Shown in pieces: positions 1,021 to 53,180 of a stretch of DNA of 64,000 nt. The stretch is from Sphingobacterium sp. UBA4616 (GTDB taxonomy: Bacteria; Bacteroidota; Bacteroidia; Sphingobacteriales; Sphingobacteriaceae): positions 113,351 through 177,350 of the forward strand of contig DGIS01000003.1 in NCBI GenBank assembly GCA_002386525.1. Direction: 5' to 3'. The notes beneath the pieces are model-generated. The model ran no database searches and had not been told where the DNA came from. It was given only the letters and a program-made list of their open reading frames with translations. The translations under genes and the position numbers were made by a program. Each line of letters starts with the position of its first letter. Position 1 is the stretch's first letter.

Positions 1021-1144
1021 CAATTTAGATATGAGTATTGGGAGATATATGCATGAAGTTCCATTTATACGTTAACATAATCGGATTAAATTATTTACAC
1101 TAAAATAACGTTCTTTTGTGTCCTATTTAGTTCCACGTTTACTT

Positions 1145-1243
1145 AGGTTTAGTTTAGGGTTTAGTTAGGGTTAGTTTAGGTATAGTATAGGTAAAACCTA
1201 AGTAAACCCTAACTAAAATCTAACTTATAGCTATACAAATCCT
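1145..1243. repeat. 11-bp phased dyad array A (AGG/CCT)
   Basis: AGG occurs at 1145, 1156, 1167, 1178 and 1189, exactly 11 bp apart. On the other side of a centre at 1194 the complementary cores start at 1197 (CCT), 1208 (CCT), 1219 (TCT), 1230 (GCT) and 1241 (CCT), again 11 bp apart. Each left core pairs with its mirror position, with runs of about five matching pairs separated by mismatches. A shifted register also gives a 22-bp imperfect hairpin (1160-1181 with 1196-1217). It sits in the 629-bp gap between the divergent ruvX and deformylase genes. Function unknown; arrays of the same geometry occur near 40.9 and 51.7 kb. Confidence 0.75.
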
Positions 1244-6333: not shown

Positions 6334-7644
6334 ATGACTTTTGAAGAATTTTTCATAAAAAAGAAAATTGATTTAAAAGCTTTACAAGCTGCAGATAAAC
6401 CTTTATTTGAGGAGTTCAAAGCACATTATTCTGCGATGGGAGAAAAAAGCTTTGACCACAGCAAGAAGTTCTGGTTCAATAAGCTTCGAAAAAGCTTCCA
6501 CCTGAAAGAGGAAGAAACTCCAGCCGCAAAACCTGCAGTAAAACAGGCCGTGACTGATACTCCAACGGAGACTTCTGGTTCGAAGGCGATAAAGCCGGCG
6601 GGTTTCAAACCTCGGTTCAAAGCTGCAATTACACCTGCAGTTGATGAGGGTAAAACCACCGAAGCACCTGATTCTGCTAAAACTGAGACTGACTCTGCTC
6701 CTACAGGATTTAAGCCGAGATTCAAGGCCGGAGTAACTAAAGCTCCTGACACAGCAGCAAGCACTCCTGTATCCGAAGAAACAACTGACGAAACTACTCT
6801 ATCGGCGCCAAAACCAACAGGATTCAAACCTAGGTTTAAAGCCGGAGTCACTAAAGCTCCTGACACAGCAGCAAGCACTCCTGTATCCGAAGAAACAACT
6901 GACGAAACTACTCCATCGGCGCCAAAACCAACAGGATTTAAGCCGAGGTTTAAAGCGGGGGTGACGAAAACAGAAACTTCCGAACAAGCGCCGCAGGCCG
7001 CACCAATAGATAAAATCAGTTCAGAAACAACTATAAACGCTGAACCAGAAAATAACAATTCGGATACCCAAGAACCTGTTGCCAACAAACCAACAGGATT
7101 CAAACCGCGGTTTAAAGCCGGAGTCACTAAACCTCCTGACACAGCAGCAACTACTCCTGCATCCGAAGAAACAACTGACAAAGCTACTCCATCGGCACCA
7201 AAACCAACAGGATTTAAGCCGAGGTTTAAATCGGGGGTGACGAAAATAGAAACTTCCGAACAAGCGCCGCAGGCCGCACCAATAGGGGAAATCAGTTCAG
7301 AAACAACTATAAACGCTGAACCAGAAAATAACAATTCGGATACCCAAGAACCTGTTGCCAACAAACCAACAGGATTTAAGCCGAGGTTTAAAGCGGGGGT
7401 GACGAAAACAGAAACTTCCGAACAAGCGCCGCAGGCCGCACCGAAAGCCGAAGTCAAGTCAGAAGAAGTCGTAAATGCGGAACAAAAAAACGACGATTCA
7501 GACACACAGCAGACTCCGGCAATAGCGCCCGAAGCGCCCGAAAACCGTAGCACTGAAGAACAGCAAACTGCAACCAGTAAACCCACGGGCTTCAAACCAC
7601 GGTTTAAAGCTGGCTTAACAAAAATTGATAAAAAGGAAGAATAA
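6334..7644 (+). CDS. Repeat-rich protein with GFKPRFKAG motifs
   Basis: 436 residues. The first 57 (MTFEEFFIKKKIDLKAL... GEKSFDHSKKFWFNKLRKSF) look like a small folded domain. The rest is low complexity: A, T, E, P, K-rich linkers carrying eight copies of the basic motif GFKPRFKAG(V/L)TK or a close variant, the last at the extreme C-terminus. No signal peptide or membrane segment, so probably cytoplasmic. Two linker types alternate: APDTAAS...SEETTDE and TETSEQAPQAAP...NNNSDTQEPVANKP. At DNA level the repeats are nearly identical over long stretches, as expected of recent duplication. Regular basic/aromatic motifs on a disordered tether suggest binding to RNA, ribosome or another acidic partner; this is inference. 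Confidence 0.8.
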   Translation: MTFEEFFIKKKIDLKALQAADKPLFEEFKAHYSAMGEKSFDHSKKFWFNKLRKSFHLKEEETPAAKPAVKQAVTDTPTETSGSKAIKPAGFKPRFKAAITPAVDEGKTTEAPDSAKTETDSAPTGFKPRFKAGVTKAPDTAASTPVSEETTDETTLSAPKPTGFKPRFKAGVTKAPDTAASTPVSEETTDETTPSAPKPTGFKPRFKAGVTKTETSEQAPQAAPIDKISSETTINAEPENNNSDTQEPVANKPTGFKPRFKAGVTKPPDTAATTPASEETTDKATPSAPKPTGFKPRFKSGVTKIETSEQAPQAAPIGEISSETTINAEPENNNSDTQEPVANKPTGFKPRFKAGVTKTETSEQAPQAAPKAEVKSEEVVNAEQKNDDSDTQQTPAIAPEAPENRSTEEQQTATSKPTGFKPRFKAGLTKIDKKEE

Positions 7645-40538: not shown

Positions 40539-40611
40539 GCGAAAGTAGCTCAGTTGGTAGAGCACAACCTTGCCAAGGTTGGGGTCGCGAGTTCGAATCT
40601 CGTCTTTCGCT
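40539..40611 (+). tRNA. tRNA-Gly (GCC)
   Basis: 73 nt, full cloverleaf: acceptor GCGAAAG/CTTTCGC, D-arm GCTCAGTTGGTAGAGC, anticodon arm CAACC-TTGCCAA-GGTTG with anticodon GCC (40572-40574), variable GGGTC, T-arm with TTCGAAT, discriminator T. CCA is not encoded. It decodes GGC and GGT. A strong terminator follows. Confidence 0.97.
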
Positions 40612-40614
40612 CTA

Positions 40615-40645: not shown

Positions 40646-41107
40646 ATTTAATAATAGTCTCCTTTCCCTTCTATTTACATCCGGTAACGCTTTATCGTTT
40701 CTCTCCTTGCCAAATTTGAGTTTAAAATTTACGAAAGAAGTATTAGCACAACTTCGACCAGATACCAAAGAAAGTATAAATTTCAATTATGATTCTATTT
40801 AGGGAAGAAAGACCTAAAGGGGATCAGGTTCTACACTTCCTCGGTGCTTCTTCGGTACTTGCTCGGTGCTTCTTCGGTTACAAGCGAACAACTAACGTTA
40901 AAGCTCCGACTAAGATCCGTTGTAACACCGTGAGAAGGGCGAATTTGGTTCCCATGCATCCTACCATATATACCCCGCGATGTACAACATCTTTCGGGCA
41001 TTTCTTCCCAATACAATTAGAAGCTCTTCCATCCAACTAAGAGCAACAAAAAGAAAAATGTCTATTGATATAATGACTATGATTCCATCGGTCGCATAGA
41101 AAAAACA
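40646..41107. other. Gene-free region between tRNA-Gly and sufD
   Basis: About 460 bp without a convincing gene; the short frames here have no start context or family features. It contains array B at 40842-40930. The rest shows nothing I can name. Confidence 0.5.
40842..40930. repeat. 11-bp phased dyad array B (CGG/CCG)
   Basis: CGG at 40842, 40853, 40864 and 40875, exactly 11 bp apart, as four tandem units of the form CTT(C/G)(C/T)TCGGT(G/A). Around a centre at 40886 the mirror positions read ACG at 40895 and CCG at 40906, 40917 and 40928, again 11 bp apart. Apart from the innermost (2 of 3), every triplet pairs with its mirror, and part of the flanking sequence also pairs. The left arm is a true tandem repeat; the right arm is more diverged. 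Function unknown. Confidence 0.75.
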
Positions 41108-41165: not shown

Positions 41166-42473
41166 TTAATTTGTTCTCAGGCTTTCCTCTACAAGCTCTT
41201 CAACATATTTCCGAACAACTTCGTTAGAGAAACGTGTGGTTACATCAAATGCAAAGGCATGAACCAACAGGATACGCGCAGATTCTTCACCAATACCTCT
41301 TGCTCTTAGATAAAAAAGTGCTTCGTTGTCAAACTGACCAATCGTACATCCATGCGAACATTTTACGTCATCTGCAAAGATCTCCAATTGTGGTTTAGTG
41401 TACACCGCTGAATTATCTGACATCAACATGTTATTGTTTTGTTGAAAAGCATTGGTTTTTTGAGCATCTTCGCGAACAAAAATTTTCCCATTGAAAACCG
41501 CAACGGATTTATCCTGCGTAATATTCTTATACCATTCGTAAGACTCGCAGTGCGGCTTAAGATGATCTACAACGGTATGATTATCGACCAATTGATCTCC
41601 AGCAGTTAAGTTAATGCCATATAAATGGCTTTCCACATTTTCTGCATCCAAACGTACATTGATATTGTTACGAATAAATGGTGCTCCGGGGAAATTACAA
41701 TTGTAATTATTATAAAGGCTATATTTTTCTTGGTGTACTTCTGTATGATTAAAGTACCGGCTTACAGATCCAGCGAGTTGCAAATAATAATGCTGCATCT
41801 TTGCATTCTCTTTGACGATAATCTCAGAAACCTTGTTTTGAACGTTATTTGCAGTACCTTCTGCAGTGATGAAGCTTTCGATCAACTCTAGCTCTGCATT
41901 TGGTTCGACAACAATCAAATTACGCGTTTGTGCAAAGAAATCCTCCTTGCCTGTTGCGACATGAATAATCTGAATTGGTTTATCAATTATGGCGCCTTTC
42001 TTTACATGGATAAAAACACCATTCGTGAAAGCAGCGGTATTTAACGCAACCATAATATTGTCTGACTTATCGGCATATTTGGCAAAATGCGCTTCAAAAG
42101 CAGGGTCCGACACGGCTTCATCCATAGGAACAACCGAAAGTCCTTTCACACTTTCTAGTTCGCTTACTGCCAATACATATTGGCCATTTACCAAGATAAT
42201 GCGATAGGCATCCAGCTTAGGGATCTCACCAGCACCAAAATCTAAGCCTTCGATATCCACATCAACATCAAGCGCATAGGTCTTATTGATAATACTGTGG
42301 ATGTTTGTATATTTCCATTCTTCATTCTTAACGGTGGGAAAGCCTGCTGCTTCGAAACGTTCGAATGCAAGTTGACGGGCTTGTACAAAAAACGAAGGTT
42401 CGTCCGAAACGCCTTGCTCCTTGTATGCTCCCAACACTTGTTGAAGTAATGATTCTGAAACTAATGTACTCAT
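41166..42473 (-). CDS. sufD: Fe-S cluster assembly protein SufD
   Basis: 435-residue partner of SufB in the SufBC2D scaffold for Fe-S cluster assembly. C-terminal SufBD core (RNLIVVEPNAELELIESFITAEGTAN, PFIRNNINVRLDAENVESHLYGI, KCSHGCTIGQFDNEALFYLRARGI with the conserved Cys/His) is complete. Third gene of a sufB-sufC-sufD minus-strand operon, 59 bp after sufC and ended by the hairpin at 41108. No sufS or sufE is in the window. Confidence 0.94.
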   Translation of the reverse strand: MSTLVSESLLQQVLGAYKEQGVSDEPSFFVQARQLAFERFEAAGFPTVKNEEWKYTNIHSIINKTYALDVDVDIEGLDFGAGEIPKLDAYRIILVNGQYVLAVSELESVKGLSVVPMDEAVSDPAFEAHFAKYADKSDNIMVALNTAAFTNGVFIHVKKGAIIDKPIQIIHVATGKEDFFAQTRNLIVVEPNAELELIESFITAEGTANNVQNKVSEIIVKENAKMQHYYLQLAGSVSRYFNHTEVHQEKYSLYNNYNCNFPGAPFIRNNINVRLDAENVESHLYGINLTAGDQLVDNHTVVDHLKPHCESYEWYKNITQDKSVAVFNGKIFVREDAQKTNAFQQNNNMLMSDNSAVYTKPQLEIFADDVKCSHGCTIGQFDNEALFYLRARGIGEESARILLVHAFAFDVTTRFSNEVVRKYVEELVEESLRTN

Positions 42474-50739: not shown

Positions 50740-51495
50740 CTATAAATAAGGATATGCTACTTCTGTTAAATACAAGCCATGTGCCGGCACGGAAACGCCA
50801 GCTTTCCCTCGGTTCTTGCTATGAATTACCTCCTGCATAAACGAAATTGGCTTGCCTTTTATTCCAATTTCCAACGATGTGCCCACAATAGCACGTACCA
50901 TATTACGCAAAAAACGATCTGCTGCAATGTGAAAAACCAATTGTTGCTCACTATGCCATACCCACTCTGCTCTACGAATATCGCAAATATTTGTAAACAC
51001 CTGCGTATGAGACTTACTAAAGCATTCGAAATCTTGCTTACCCAGTAAGAATTGTGCCGCTTCATTCATCTTTTCTACATCCGGGCGATCGCGCATAAAA
51101 CATGAATAGGGATATAGGAAAGGATCTTTATGAAAATGAAGATGGTACTCATATGATCTTTGTGTCGCATCAAAGCGTGCATGCGCTTCAGGCCCCACTT
51201 CAATCAAGCGCTTTACTGCCACATCAAAAGGCAATAAGGCGTTAAGTGAATGAATAAATCGATCTGCTTTTTGCAAAATGCCTACAGGAACAGCATCAAA
51301 ATGTGCATACAATTGTTTCGCATGAACACCGGTATCTGTGCGGCCAGCACCAGTTGTTTCGATGGGTTCCCGCAATAGGATTTCAAGCGCATTATTCAGT
51401 ACTTCTTGCACGGAAATTGCATTATTCTGAATCTGCCAACCATGATAAGCCTGCCCAAAATAGGCTATTTCTAAAAAAAAACGTCTTTTATCCAT
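50740..51495 (-). CDS. truA: tRNA pseudouridine(38-40) synthase TruA
   Basis: 251 residues from ATG 51495 (MDKRRFFLEIAYFGQAYHGWQIQ). An in-frame start 39 bp upstream lies beyond a -7 box at 51505 and is rejected. Catalytic Asp is in GAGRTDTGVHAKQLYAHFD; VAVKRLIEVGPEAHARFDATQRSYEYHL, the FLRNMVRAIVGTSLEIG and the VPAHGLYLTEV tail are intact. Modifies tRNA anticodon stem-loops. Probably co-transcribed with the ABC exporter gene. Confidence 0.95.
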   Translation of the reverse strand: MDKRRFFLEIAYFGQAYHGWQIQNNAISVQEVLNNALEILLREPIETTGAGRTDTGVHAKQLYAHFDAVPVGILQKADRFIHSLNALLPFDVAVKRLIEVGPEAHARFDATQRSYEYHLHFHKDPFLYPYSCFMRDRPDVEKMNEAAQFLLGKQDFECFSKSHTQVFTNICDIRRAEWVWHSEQQLVFHIAADRFLRNMVRAIVGTSLEIGIKGKPISFMQEVIHSKNRGKAGVSVPAHGLYLTEVAYPYL

Positions 51496-51504
51496 TATAT
51501 GTAA

Positions 51505-51512
51505 CAAAGGTA
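51505..51512 (-). promoter_or_regulatory. -7 box deciding the truA start
   Basis: TACCTTTG on the minus strand, ending 9 nt before the ATG at 51495. The upstream in-frame start at 51534 is thus outside the transcript; the leader would be only a few nucleotides. Confidence 0.45.
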
Positions 51513-51690
51513 CGTTTTTCCAAATGAGCATCATTTCTCCGTAGAACGAATTTGCTCATTTTACTCATTATTTAATTCTTACATGACAAAACTGTTTGTT
51601 TTGCACTTCCTTTTTACTCAAATTTGCCTGATGGGTAATTTGGTATTCAGCGGCACCAAAGCCACAGTAAACACCTACTATCTTCGCCAT
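51513..51690. other. Gene-free region upstream of truA
   Basis: AT-rich sequence with a 7-bp inverted repeat ATGAGCA/TGCTCAT about 22 bp apart near 51524-51559. No gene or RNA recognised; array C follows at 51694. Confidence 0.4.
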
Positions 51691-51693
51691 GCG

Positions 51694-51780
51694 ACCACGG
51701 TAAGTCCACCGTGAGTCCACGTTGAGTCCACCTTTTAAAGTACATTCAATGCGGGAGCACCATGGTCGCAATATGGTCGC
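51694..51780. repeat. 11-bp phased dyad array C (CCA/TGG)
   Basis: CCA at 51695, 51706, 51717 and 51728, exactly 11 bp apart, with units like ACGTTGAGTCC and ACCGTGAGTCC. Around a centre at 51735.5 the mirror positions read TAC (51741, decayed), CGG (51752), TGG (51763) and TGG (51774). The outermost units pair over seven bases, GCGACCA (51691-51697) with TGGTCGC (51774-51780), and TGGTCGC recurs 11 bp earlier. It lies between truA and the end of murF. Function unknown. Confidence 0.75.
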
Positions 51781-51826
51781 ACGCCAAACTTATCCCCTAG
51801 TTGTGCATAACACAAAGCTAAAAAGA

Positions 51827-53128
51827 CTATAGTAATTCGACTAAATTTTCAAACGCCATGCCCCTTGAGGCTTTCAGTAAAACCGTGCTGTTCATTACTG
51901 GCGTGTCACGGATGGCTTGTTTTGCTTCGGCAGTAGTTTCATAAAACTCTCCCCCCTTGTATTGATGCACAAAAAACTCTTTTCCAACAAAGATCTTACG
52001 ATCAGCTGGGATAGATCTTACGTTTTCGACAATTTTTTTATGCTCTTCAAAAGATTCTTCTCCCAATTCGAACATATCTCCCAATACAATTGCTTTCTTA
52101 TCCGCATCAATAATACGGATATTATCTAGTGCAGCGGACATGCTCGTTGCATTTGCATTATAATAATCGCAGATCAGTGTATTGTGTGCAGTTTTCATCA
52201 CCTGAGAACGATTGTTCGTTGGGGTGTACCCTTCAATCCCCCGATTGATGGCAGCAGCAGAAATGTCAAAATGCAACCCTACAGCAATAGCAGCTAGAAA
52301 ATTTTCGGTATTATAAGATCCTGTTAATTGGGTATTTACTACATAAGAGTCGGTCGTACCCTTCTTTTGCCATTCAATTTGCAACAGAGGATTTGCTTTA
52401 AGAAGCTTCCCTATGACCTGATTATTTTCCGAAAAACCATAAGTAACAATATCGGTTATCTGGCGGGCGGCAGCCATTTCCTTGAGATGTGGATTATCCG
52501 CCTGCAAAAATAATACACCTTGATGGTCCTGCAACCAGTCGTACAGTTCGCCTTTGGTTGTCTTTACACCTTCAAAAGATCCAAAACCCTCGAGATGTGC
52601 TTTACCAACGTTAGAAATCAAACCATGTGTCGGTTCGGCAATTCCACATAAAAAAGCAATTTCTTTCAAATGATTTGCTCCCATTTCTATAATTGCCAGT
52701 TCGATCGAATCGTCTATTGCTAATAAAGTTAACGGAACTCCAATGTGGTTATTTAAATTTCCTTTCGTTGCATATGCCTTGAACTTTTGTGAAACCACCG
52801 CATATAACAGCTCTTTGGTTGTAGTTTTTCCATTCGTACCAGTCACGCCAATAATGGGAATATGCAATTGATGCCGGTGATAATTCGCAAGCTGCTGCAA
52901 TGTACTAAGAACATCATCAACAAGAATATAACTTTCATCTTTTTGGTAAATATCTTCGTCAATAACAACATATTTGGCGCCCATTTCAATCGCGTTTTCT
53001 GCGAAAGTATTGCCATTGAAATTAGCCCCTTTTAAAGCGAAAAAGATACTATCTTTTCCAATTTTACGTGTATCTGTTGTAATATTCGGATACTGTTTAT
53101 AAATCTGATAGAGTGATTGGATATCCAT
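51827..53128 (-). CDS. murF: UDP-MurNAc-tripeptide--D-Ala-D-Ala ligase MurF
   Basis: Adds D-Ala-D-Ala to the peptidoglycan precursor in the cytoplasm. 433 residues from ATG 53128 (MDIQSLYQIYKQYPNITTDTRKI); the in-frame ATG at 53149 falls within the promoter's -7 box and is rejected. ATP-binding GVTGTNGKTTTKELL, UDP-sugar binding GNLNNHIGVPLTLL, EMGANHLKEIAFLC and DYYNANATSMSAAL motifs are present, with the C-terminal Mur ligase domain ending in FENLVELL. Controlled by the third copy of the 34-bp promoter box. Confidence 0.95.
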   Translation of the reverse strand: MDIQSLYQIYKQYPNITTDTRKIGKDSIFFALKGANFNGNTFAENAIEMGAKYVVIDEDIYQKDESYILVDDVLSTLQQLANYHRHQLHIPIIGVTGTNGKTTTKELLYAVVSQKFKAYATKGNLNNHIGVPLTLLAIDDSIELAIIEMGANHLKEIAFLCGIAEPTHGLISNVGKAHLEGFGSFEGVKTTKGELYDWLQDHQGVLFLQADNPHLKEMAAARQITDIVTYGFSENNQVIGKLLKANPLLQIEWQKKGTTDSYVVNTQLTGSYNTENFLAAIAVGLHFDISAAAINRGIEGYTPTNNRSQVMKTAHNTLICDYYNANATSMSAALDNIRIIDADKKAIVLGDMFELGEESFEEHKKIVENVRSIPADRKIFVGKEFFVHQYKGGEFYETTAEAKQAIRDTPVMNSTVLLKASRGMAFENLVELL

Positions 53129-53146
53129 GTTGAGCAATTTGTTGAA

Positions 53147-53180
53147 CAAACTTAGAGAAATTGCTTTTTATATGCAATAC
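53147..53180 (-). promoter_or_regulatory. Conserved 34-bp promoter box, copy 3 (murF)
   Basis: Minus strand TTG (53177-53175), 20 bp, TAAGTTTG (53154-53147). Differs from the fcl copy at two of 34 positions. It settles the murF start at 53128, with a leader of about 13 nt. Confidence 0.7.

Follow-up and report, generated by a model that had tools for sequence, protein, structure and literature searches.

Phased dyad arrays of Sphingobacterium and related genera, with copies upstream of DUF6266 genes

The genome of Sphingobacterium sp. UBA4616 carries an 11-bp phased dyad array (array A) within a 64,000-nt stretch of contig DGIS01000003.1 that was analysed as a whole (the window). In a reading to which we give an even chance, array A belongs, as a dispersed ('away') copy, to a class of Sphingobacteriaceae arrays that have their 'home' copies immediately upstream of DUF6266 genes, and the arrays would be helically phased protein sites on double-stranded DNA, set in two opposed arms and cognate to the DUF6266 genes. 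The class itself exists and comprises many core types in a 10-11-bp register; it is enriched upstream of DUF6266 genes, and the same array type is found at home and at away sites in the case of A, B and CAGTG. The preliminary description had named array A the best candidate in the window for an undescribed element; the data support this, except that the candidate proves to be a large class with many core sequences and not one locus. The class of phased mirror-image arrays is apparently undescribed, as no account of such arrays was found in the titles and abstracts of the literature searched, where the name DUF6266 was not found either.

The core positions of array A and their symmetry about position 1194 were confirmed by direct reading of the sequence; the mirror cores of the right arm are CCT (1197), CCT (1208), TCT (1219), GCT (1230) and CCT (1241). 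Two further gaps of the window that had been put forward as sharing this plan do carry such arrays (arrays B and C), and the type of array B is that of the arrays upstream of MAVIKNGANG-type DUF6266 genes. The coordinates are summarized in Table 1. Elsewhere in the window, overlapping matches of positions 6700-7628 to one part of a related genome (G001) suggest a repeat-containing gene (ORF 6334-7644).

Table 1. Phased dyad arrays in the window (window coordinates)
Feature	Position	Strand	Remarks
Array A, 11-bp phased dyad array, A type, site TAGG..T	1137..1243	.	between ruvX (584-997, -) and DUF1684/deformylase gene (1627-2853, +)
Array A, left arm, five AGG cores 11 bp apart	1145..1191	+	starts 1145, 1156, 1167, 1178, 1189
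Array A, right arm, five mirror cores	1197..1243	-	more degenerate than left arm
Array B, TCGGTGCTTCT type	40834..40935	.	between tRNA-Gly (40539-40612) and SufBD-type gene (41166-42473, -)
Array C, AGTCCACNNTG type	51687..51785	.	between tRNA pseudouridine synthase gene (50740-51534, -) and Mur-ligase-family gene (51827-53149, -)

The pattern GGN9GGN9GGN9GG occurs four times in the window (0.55 expected; 0 of 100 shuffles reached four), and all four occurrences fall in arrays A, B and C. For G001, the nearest genome compared, 544 intergenic regions (143 kb) from sixty 20-kb stretches were scanned for self-similarity with a cut-off of at least 22/33; lag 11 was found in 15 regions versus 0.7 in dinucleotide shuffles, and the other lags gave 1 (lag 10), 5 (lag 12), 6 (lag 22) and 5 (lag 24). 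Seven of the 15 lag-11 regions were clear arrays by eye, and some were AT-rich DNA of low complexity. The shuffle comparison proposed in the preliminary description thus gave an excess of 11-bp repetition both for the window pattern and in the intergenic DNA of G001, and on these two counts array A is not a chance pattern.

The relatives of the window source are members of Sphingobacterium. A BLAST search with array A gave matches in 12 of 59 relatives, all 12 among the 36 Sphingobacterium genomes of the search, and array A is a member of a dispersed family. G001 keeps array A with 99% identity and holds at least nine copies of the family (six upstream of 16S rRNA genes, the orthologue of the window array, and two more), so that array A is neither absent from a close strain nor solitary; the outcome named beforehand as refuting it, absence from close strains with no other copies, was not observed. 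One A copy of G001 is located between a fumarylacetoacetate-hydrolase-like gene (by eye) and a DUF6266 gene (Pfam), and another between a nucleosidase-like gene and a pair of genes resembling 6-pyruvoyl-tetrahydropterin synthase and folE (named by eye). At the window site in more distant species, the array was seen in only one of 18 syntenic loci (L012-L029; by eye, 1 kb), a metagenome-assembled locus (L014) with a left arm one 11-bp unit shorter. In the alignment of the window with G001, arrays A and B are kept and array C is lost inside a larger unaligned stretch, and no site could be read as empty. The B type was found in G001, G006, G017 and G022 (4 of 40 genomes searched), at the matching site in the first three and not in G022, G063 or G027 (by eye). 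Judged by eye, G006, G017 and G027 have a complete array C, several other genomes have only part of it, and G001 has lost it; among close species the array has gained or lost units.

Of 49 A loci fetched (L051-L080, L105-L123), 25 contain a 16S start with the array upstream of the 16S, and the loci without one may be cut by contig ends; the 16S was confirmed by covariance model in 11 of 20 A loci checked. In all 25, the 16S start is on the side of the AGG arm, on the opposite strand and approx. 0.64-1.22 kb away. Two of the loci upstream of 16S (L112 and L116) also show C-like 11-bp repeats (GGACTCAACAC) a few hundred bases from the A array (by eye). The position of the A copies upstream of 16S, in a single orientation, is consistent with a supercoil buffer or a cruciform-forming insulator upstream of strongly transcribed genes, as is the position of three further A loci read (in G001 or the window), all in divergent gaps. 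However, TCGG-type away arrays show no bias to divergent gaps (22 co-directional, 10 divergent and 9 convergent, for the 41 of 50 loci that were placed, some of them orthologous or identical), and a cruciform needs pairing of cognate arms, which is not favoured by the comparison of arms given below; we consider such a function very unlikely. A role of all arrays as promoters or terminators was also rejected, since the gap orientation of the same 41 loci is like the background.

The TCGG core illustrates the extent of the class. Four TCGG units at 11-bp spacing, searched with a looser pattern, were found in 38 of 60 Sphingobacterium genomes, with 617 matches versus 20 for the reversed-pattern control; exact matches occur in 43 of 250 genomes from the order, representing 6 of the 16 genera covered. 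The elements of the class are about 100-500 bp in size and contain many units, up to ten per arm in the longest. Arrays with the core CAGTG are dispersed in at least eight of ten genomes searched and, by coordinates, lie beside DUF6266 genes in G009, G017, G018 and G022, both among the matches listed. Long TTCGG arrays were observed in seven loci (L255, L256, L258, L260-L262 and L265), followed in several by a second 11-bp array with the core GTACY; these arrays fall within an open frame, often one beginning with MNNFYKGGRG, MQQFYANG or a similar sequence, and the genes downstream are thioredoxin-like or SusC/SusD-like. Arrays at thioredoxin/SusC/SusD operons made up 7 of 13 loci, and as all 13 were chosen for array matches, no rate can be derived from this number; the operon genes were assigned by thioredoxin-like or TonB-plug domains (Pfam) in five of the seven and named by eye in the rest. 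The copies at rRNA and SusC/D operons may merely reflect where copies survive.

A comparison of positions found TCGG arrays and DUF6266 genes side by side. In a cleaner test of this association, loci were chosen by the Pfam model alone, one per genome and the best 30 by score for each set. Among 28 Sphingobacterium loci of this best-scoring set, lag 11 (at 21/33) was found within 500 bp upstream of the DUF6266 gene in 25 and downstream in none; the other upstream lags were lag 22 (19 loci), lag 33 (11) and lags 10 and 32 (3 each), with none for the rest of lags 6-33. Among 27 loci of the corresponding set from other genera, lags 10 and 11 were found upstream in 14 each (lag 22 in nine; lags 20, 7 and 14 in five each; lag 21 in four) and downstream in none, where lags 7, 14 and 21 also occur; 10- and 11-bp steps mix in these genera. 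In an enlarged set with HMM-located starts, 63 of 95 DUF6266 genes have an array at 21/33 (56 at 22/33) and 32 have none upstream at 21/33, compared with 16 of 840 control genes of G001 at 22/33, or 10 of 166 with an upstream gap of at least 300 bp. Ten of the 95 loci had been reached through array A and others had been selected in five genomes, and therefore the Pfam-only test (25/28 versus 0/28) provides the cleaner figure.

DUF6266 was detected in 88 of 201 Sphingobacteriaceae genomes and 13 of 25 genera, and in none of 14 control genomes. TCGG arrays are present in 35 of 43 genomes with DUF6266 and in 3 of 17 without (Fisher p 7e-6, a value that ignores shared ancestry). Eight genomes thus have DUF6266 without a TCGG array and three the converse; the TCGG pattern detects one core only, and in two of the eight (G066 and G081) the array upstream of the gene has a different core (L319 and L316, respectively). 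In G062, no array was found upstream of two of its three DUF6266 genes (the two with placeable starts), despite 33 dispersed array loci in this genome.

Array types and gene types are paired. MAILEDGPNG-type DUF6266 genes are found with TAGG arrays, MAVIKNGANG-type genes with TCGGTGCTT, MAIIKNGVNG-type genes with CAGTG, and the remaining gene types with TTTGC or TTCGA/G arrays. Protein identity and array-unit similarity are correlated over 63 arrays (Mantel r 0.50; 0 of 2000 permutations), a correlation that comes in part from plain orthology. In some loci the gene neighbourhood was also read: DUF6266 is followed by a DUF5675 gene in L263 and by a CHAP-domain gene in L257, and L257, L263 and L264 contain small membrane-like and lipoprotein-like genes (by eye) that resemble a lysis cassette. 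An assignment of DUF6266 as a phage gene was rejected, as 61 stretches of viral contigs matched a pattern and none was confirmed, a search of phages gave one weak match, and one PHROG matched at E 0.043 for one of four proteins.

The home arrays have a regular position. Among 18 genes of the A, B, CAGTG and TAGGG subtypes, 17 have the array approx. 171-184 bp ahead of the start codon (128 bp in L379). A TAnnTTTG motif, which we take to be the Bacteroidetes promoter motif, is present in 13 of 29 home loci, 55-83 bp from the start codon and downstream of the array end; 12 of these 13 also have a suitably spaced TTG, and TAnnTTTG is absent in 14 of the 29. The near-constant distance would also suit tandem operators for an ordinary regulator with sites every 11 bp, unrelated to DUF6266. 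The OmpR/PhoB family has such 11-bp direct-repeat operators (Pho-box type), usually few direct sites, and the arrays resemble these in their head-to-tail 11-bp sites upstream of promoters. In contrast to Pho-box-type operators, the arrays have up to ten units per arm, two opposed arms and many unrelated cores; neither this architecture nor cores linked to DUF6266 subtypes are expected of one regulator, and we judge this explanation unlikely.

Dispersed intergenic palindromic repeats with a home copy beside a gene family, and with matching types of gene and repeat, are also features of the REP/BIME elements and their RAYT genes. The arrays might, accordingly, be REP/REPIN-like selfish palindromic repeats spread by a transposase, with phasing and DUF6266 proximity as side effects. 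The sharing of types between home and away sites agrees with REP/RAYT as presented in PMC2817692, the arrays have no orientation preference, and 22 of the 33 array loci of G062 (TCGG pattern) were read and carry one closely similar element with different flanks. The G062 loci are spread out, the closest pair being 41 kb apart (0 of 20,000 random sets so spaced), and the coefficient of variation of their spacing is not unusual (p 0.06). However, the Y1/RAYT transposase (PF01797) does not follow the arrays: of 60 genomes, 13 have it, and these comprise 6 of the 38 genomes that carry TCGG arrays and 7 of the 22 that lack them; the array-rich G001, G006, G016, G017, G027 and G073 do not have it, whereas G003 and G036, with 12 and 19 matches, have no TCGG array. 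Both are present in G062, G020 and G023. Furthermore, the elements are much larger than the REPs of 20-40 bp given in PMC3733652, and no target-site duplication was seen by eye in the G062 copies. For REP/RAYT, repeats would be expected on both sides of the gene, while the DUF6266 arrays of the Pfam-only test lie upstream only; the type-specific pairing of gene and repeat is found for DUF6266 arrays as well, partly explained by orthology. With an FN3-like partner instead of a Y1 transposase, and with 10-11-bp phasing, spread as a REP-like element appears rather unlikely. In the loci read from G062 (L266-L287), further short repeats (TTATGTCT-like runs and GGTTGGTG/CACCAACC palindromes) are often found next to the arrays.

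Foldback transposons of eukaryotes are long inverted repeats of short tandem units with changing unit number, to which the arrays bear a likeness in build and variable length. The arrays differ from these in being bacterial, in having a unit of approx. one helical turn, and in that no transposase or target duplication was found.

For the A type, ten species keep the array upstream of a DUF6266 gene, and in their alignment the flanks drift and the array register stays. Across the five left-arm units of the ten sequences, phases 1-3 (TAG) and phase 7 (T) are invariant and phase 4 (G) has a single exception; the corresponding inverted bases of the right arm, CTA and A, show almost no variation. 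Hence, left-arm units keep TAGG..T and the right arm keeps its inverse. Arm-to-arm complementarity over 95 elements gives a comb of 11 and not a single peak, with means of 35.7 at the best centre (inflated, as it is the maximum by choice), approx. 30 at +-11 and 28 at +-22, and 13-20 between.

These data bear on the long stem in RNA that was raised in the preliminary description, i.e. a structured RNA with a long imperfect hairpin, for which 11 bp would represent one turn of the A-form helix. Arrays A, B and C fold better than shuffles (z -4.0, -3.6 and -2.6), and on the gene strand of the home arrays G.T mismatches exceed A.C in 35 of 57, with A.C in excess in 14 and 8 ties. In the ten-species alignment, one shifted hairpin register shows clear covariation (its score was reached by 0 of 500 shuffles), mainly through the TATAGTATA variant common to left unit 5 and right unit 2, a sharing that would also arise by copying between units. 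However, the natural register shows no covariation and the register shifted the other way only little, the complementarity of the arms is not unit-specific, 10- and 11-bp steps are mixed in other genera, promoter motifs, where recognisable, are placed between array and gene (the 13 of 29 loci above), and the Rfam scan of the window at gathering scores gave tRNA only and no match for the arrays. Most mismatches (1004) are neither G.T (318) nor A.C (222), and a G.T excess is also expected if the right arm is less constrained. The RNA stem is therefore not favoured, and we regard it as distinctly unlikely.

The other suggestion made for array A, cores on one face of the DNA for a polymerising protein, agrees with the fixed register, the unit constraint in both arms, the comb of 11 and the mixing of 10- and 11-bp steps; the protein itself is a putative one. 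The comparison with parC of plasmid R1 that accompanied it holds as an analogy, in that 11-bp repeats set sites on one helix face in both. According to PMC9426499, at least two 11-bp repeats are required by ParR of R1, the repeats bound by ParR proteins are direct, and parC adjoins parM beside the par genes; the arrays here have opposed arms and many dispersed copies. As had been stated, no partition genes are nearby: the Pfam scan of nine neighbouring proteins of the three window arrays found no partition protein (ParM/ParR). A chromosomal partition site of the parC kind was thus rejected and is extremely improbable.

The DUF6266 protein was modelled from 51 sequences (mean pLDDT 85.8; residues 1-23 of low confidence). 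It is predicted to comprise a strongly conserved Gly/Lys-rich N-terminus, two helices and an FN3-like C-terminal domain, and a structure search with the model gave the FN3-like domain only, among the matches listed, a result that bears on that domain alone. The predicted FN3-like fold is not a known DNA-binding fold, and the model is compatible with DNA binding without demonstrating it.

Helical phasing, opposed arms and the constraint on each unit favour a protein that assembles on double-stranded DNA. In such a mechanism, the array would act as double-stranded DNA with each unit as one protein site, all on one helix face, and the protein would assemble cooperatively on the two opposed arms. 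The binding protein might be the DUF6266 product of the matching type, or a partner of this product, and its binding might control the home promoter and mark or insulate away sites such as those upstream of rRNA operons. Evidence counted against this reading comprises the case of G062, the 32 of 95 genes without an array, the genomes with only one of the two partners, the predicted fold of DUF6266, the lack of a clear preference of away TCGG arrays for gaps on the promoter side of genes, the covarying register, the G.T excess on the gene strand, and the share of orthology in the Mantel correlation. A further-reaching proposal, which we put forward tentatively and lean against, is that DUF6266 represents a new class of array-binding proteins with paralog-specific 10-11-bp units, which would form a filament on the opposed arms upstream of their own gene and act at scattered copies including rRNA operons, as parallel genome-wide networks in one cell.

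With these data, the unstudied protein family DUF6266 is linked to a cis-element of clear physical design, so that a DNA pattern and a gene family, both nameless, become open to joint study. The paralog-specific array types within one genome make protein-DNA recognition and the spread of arrays directly testable, and a function in the cell's most active transcription units is hinted at by the copies that precede rRNA operons.
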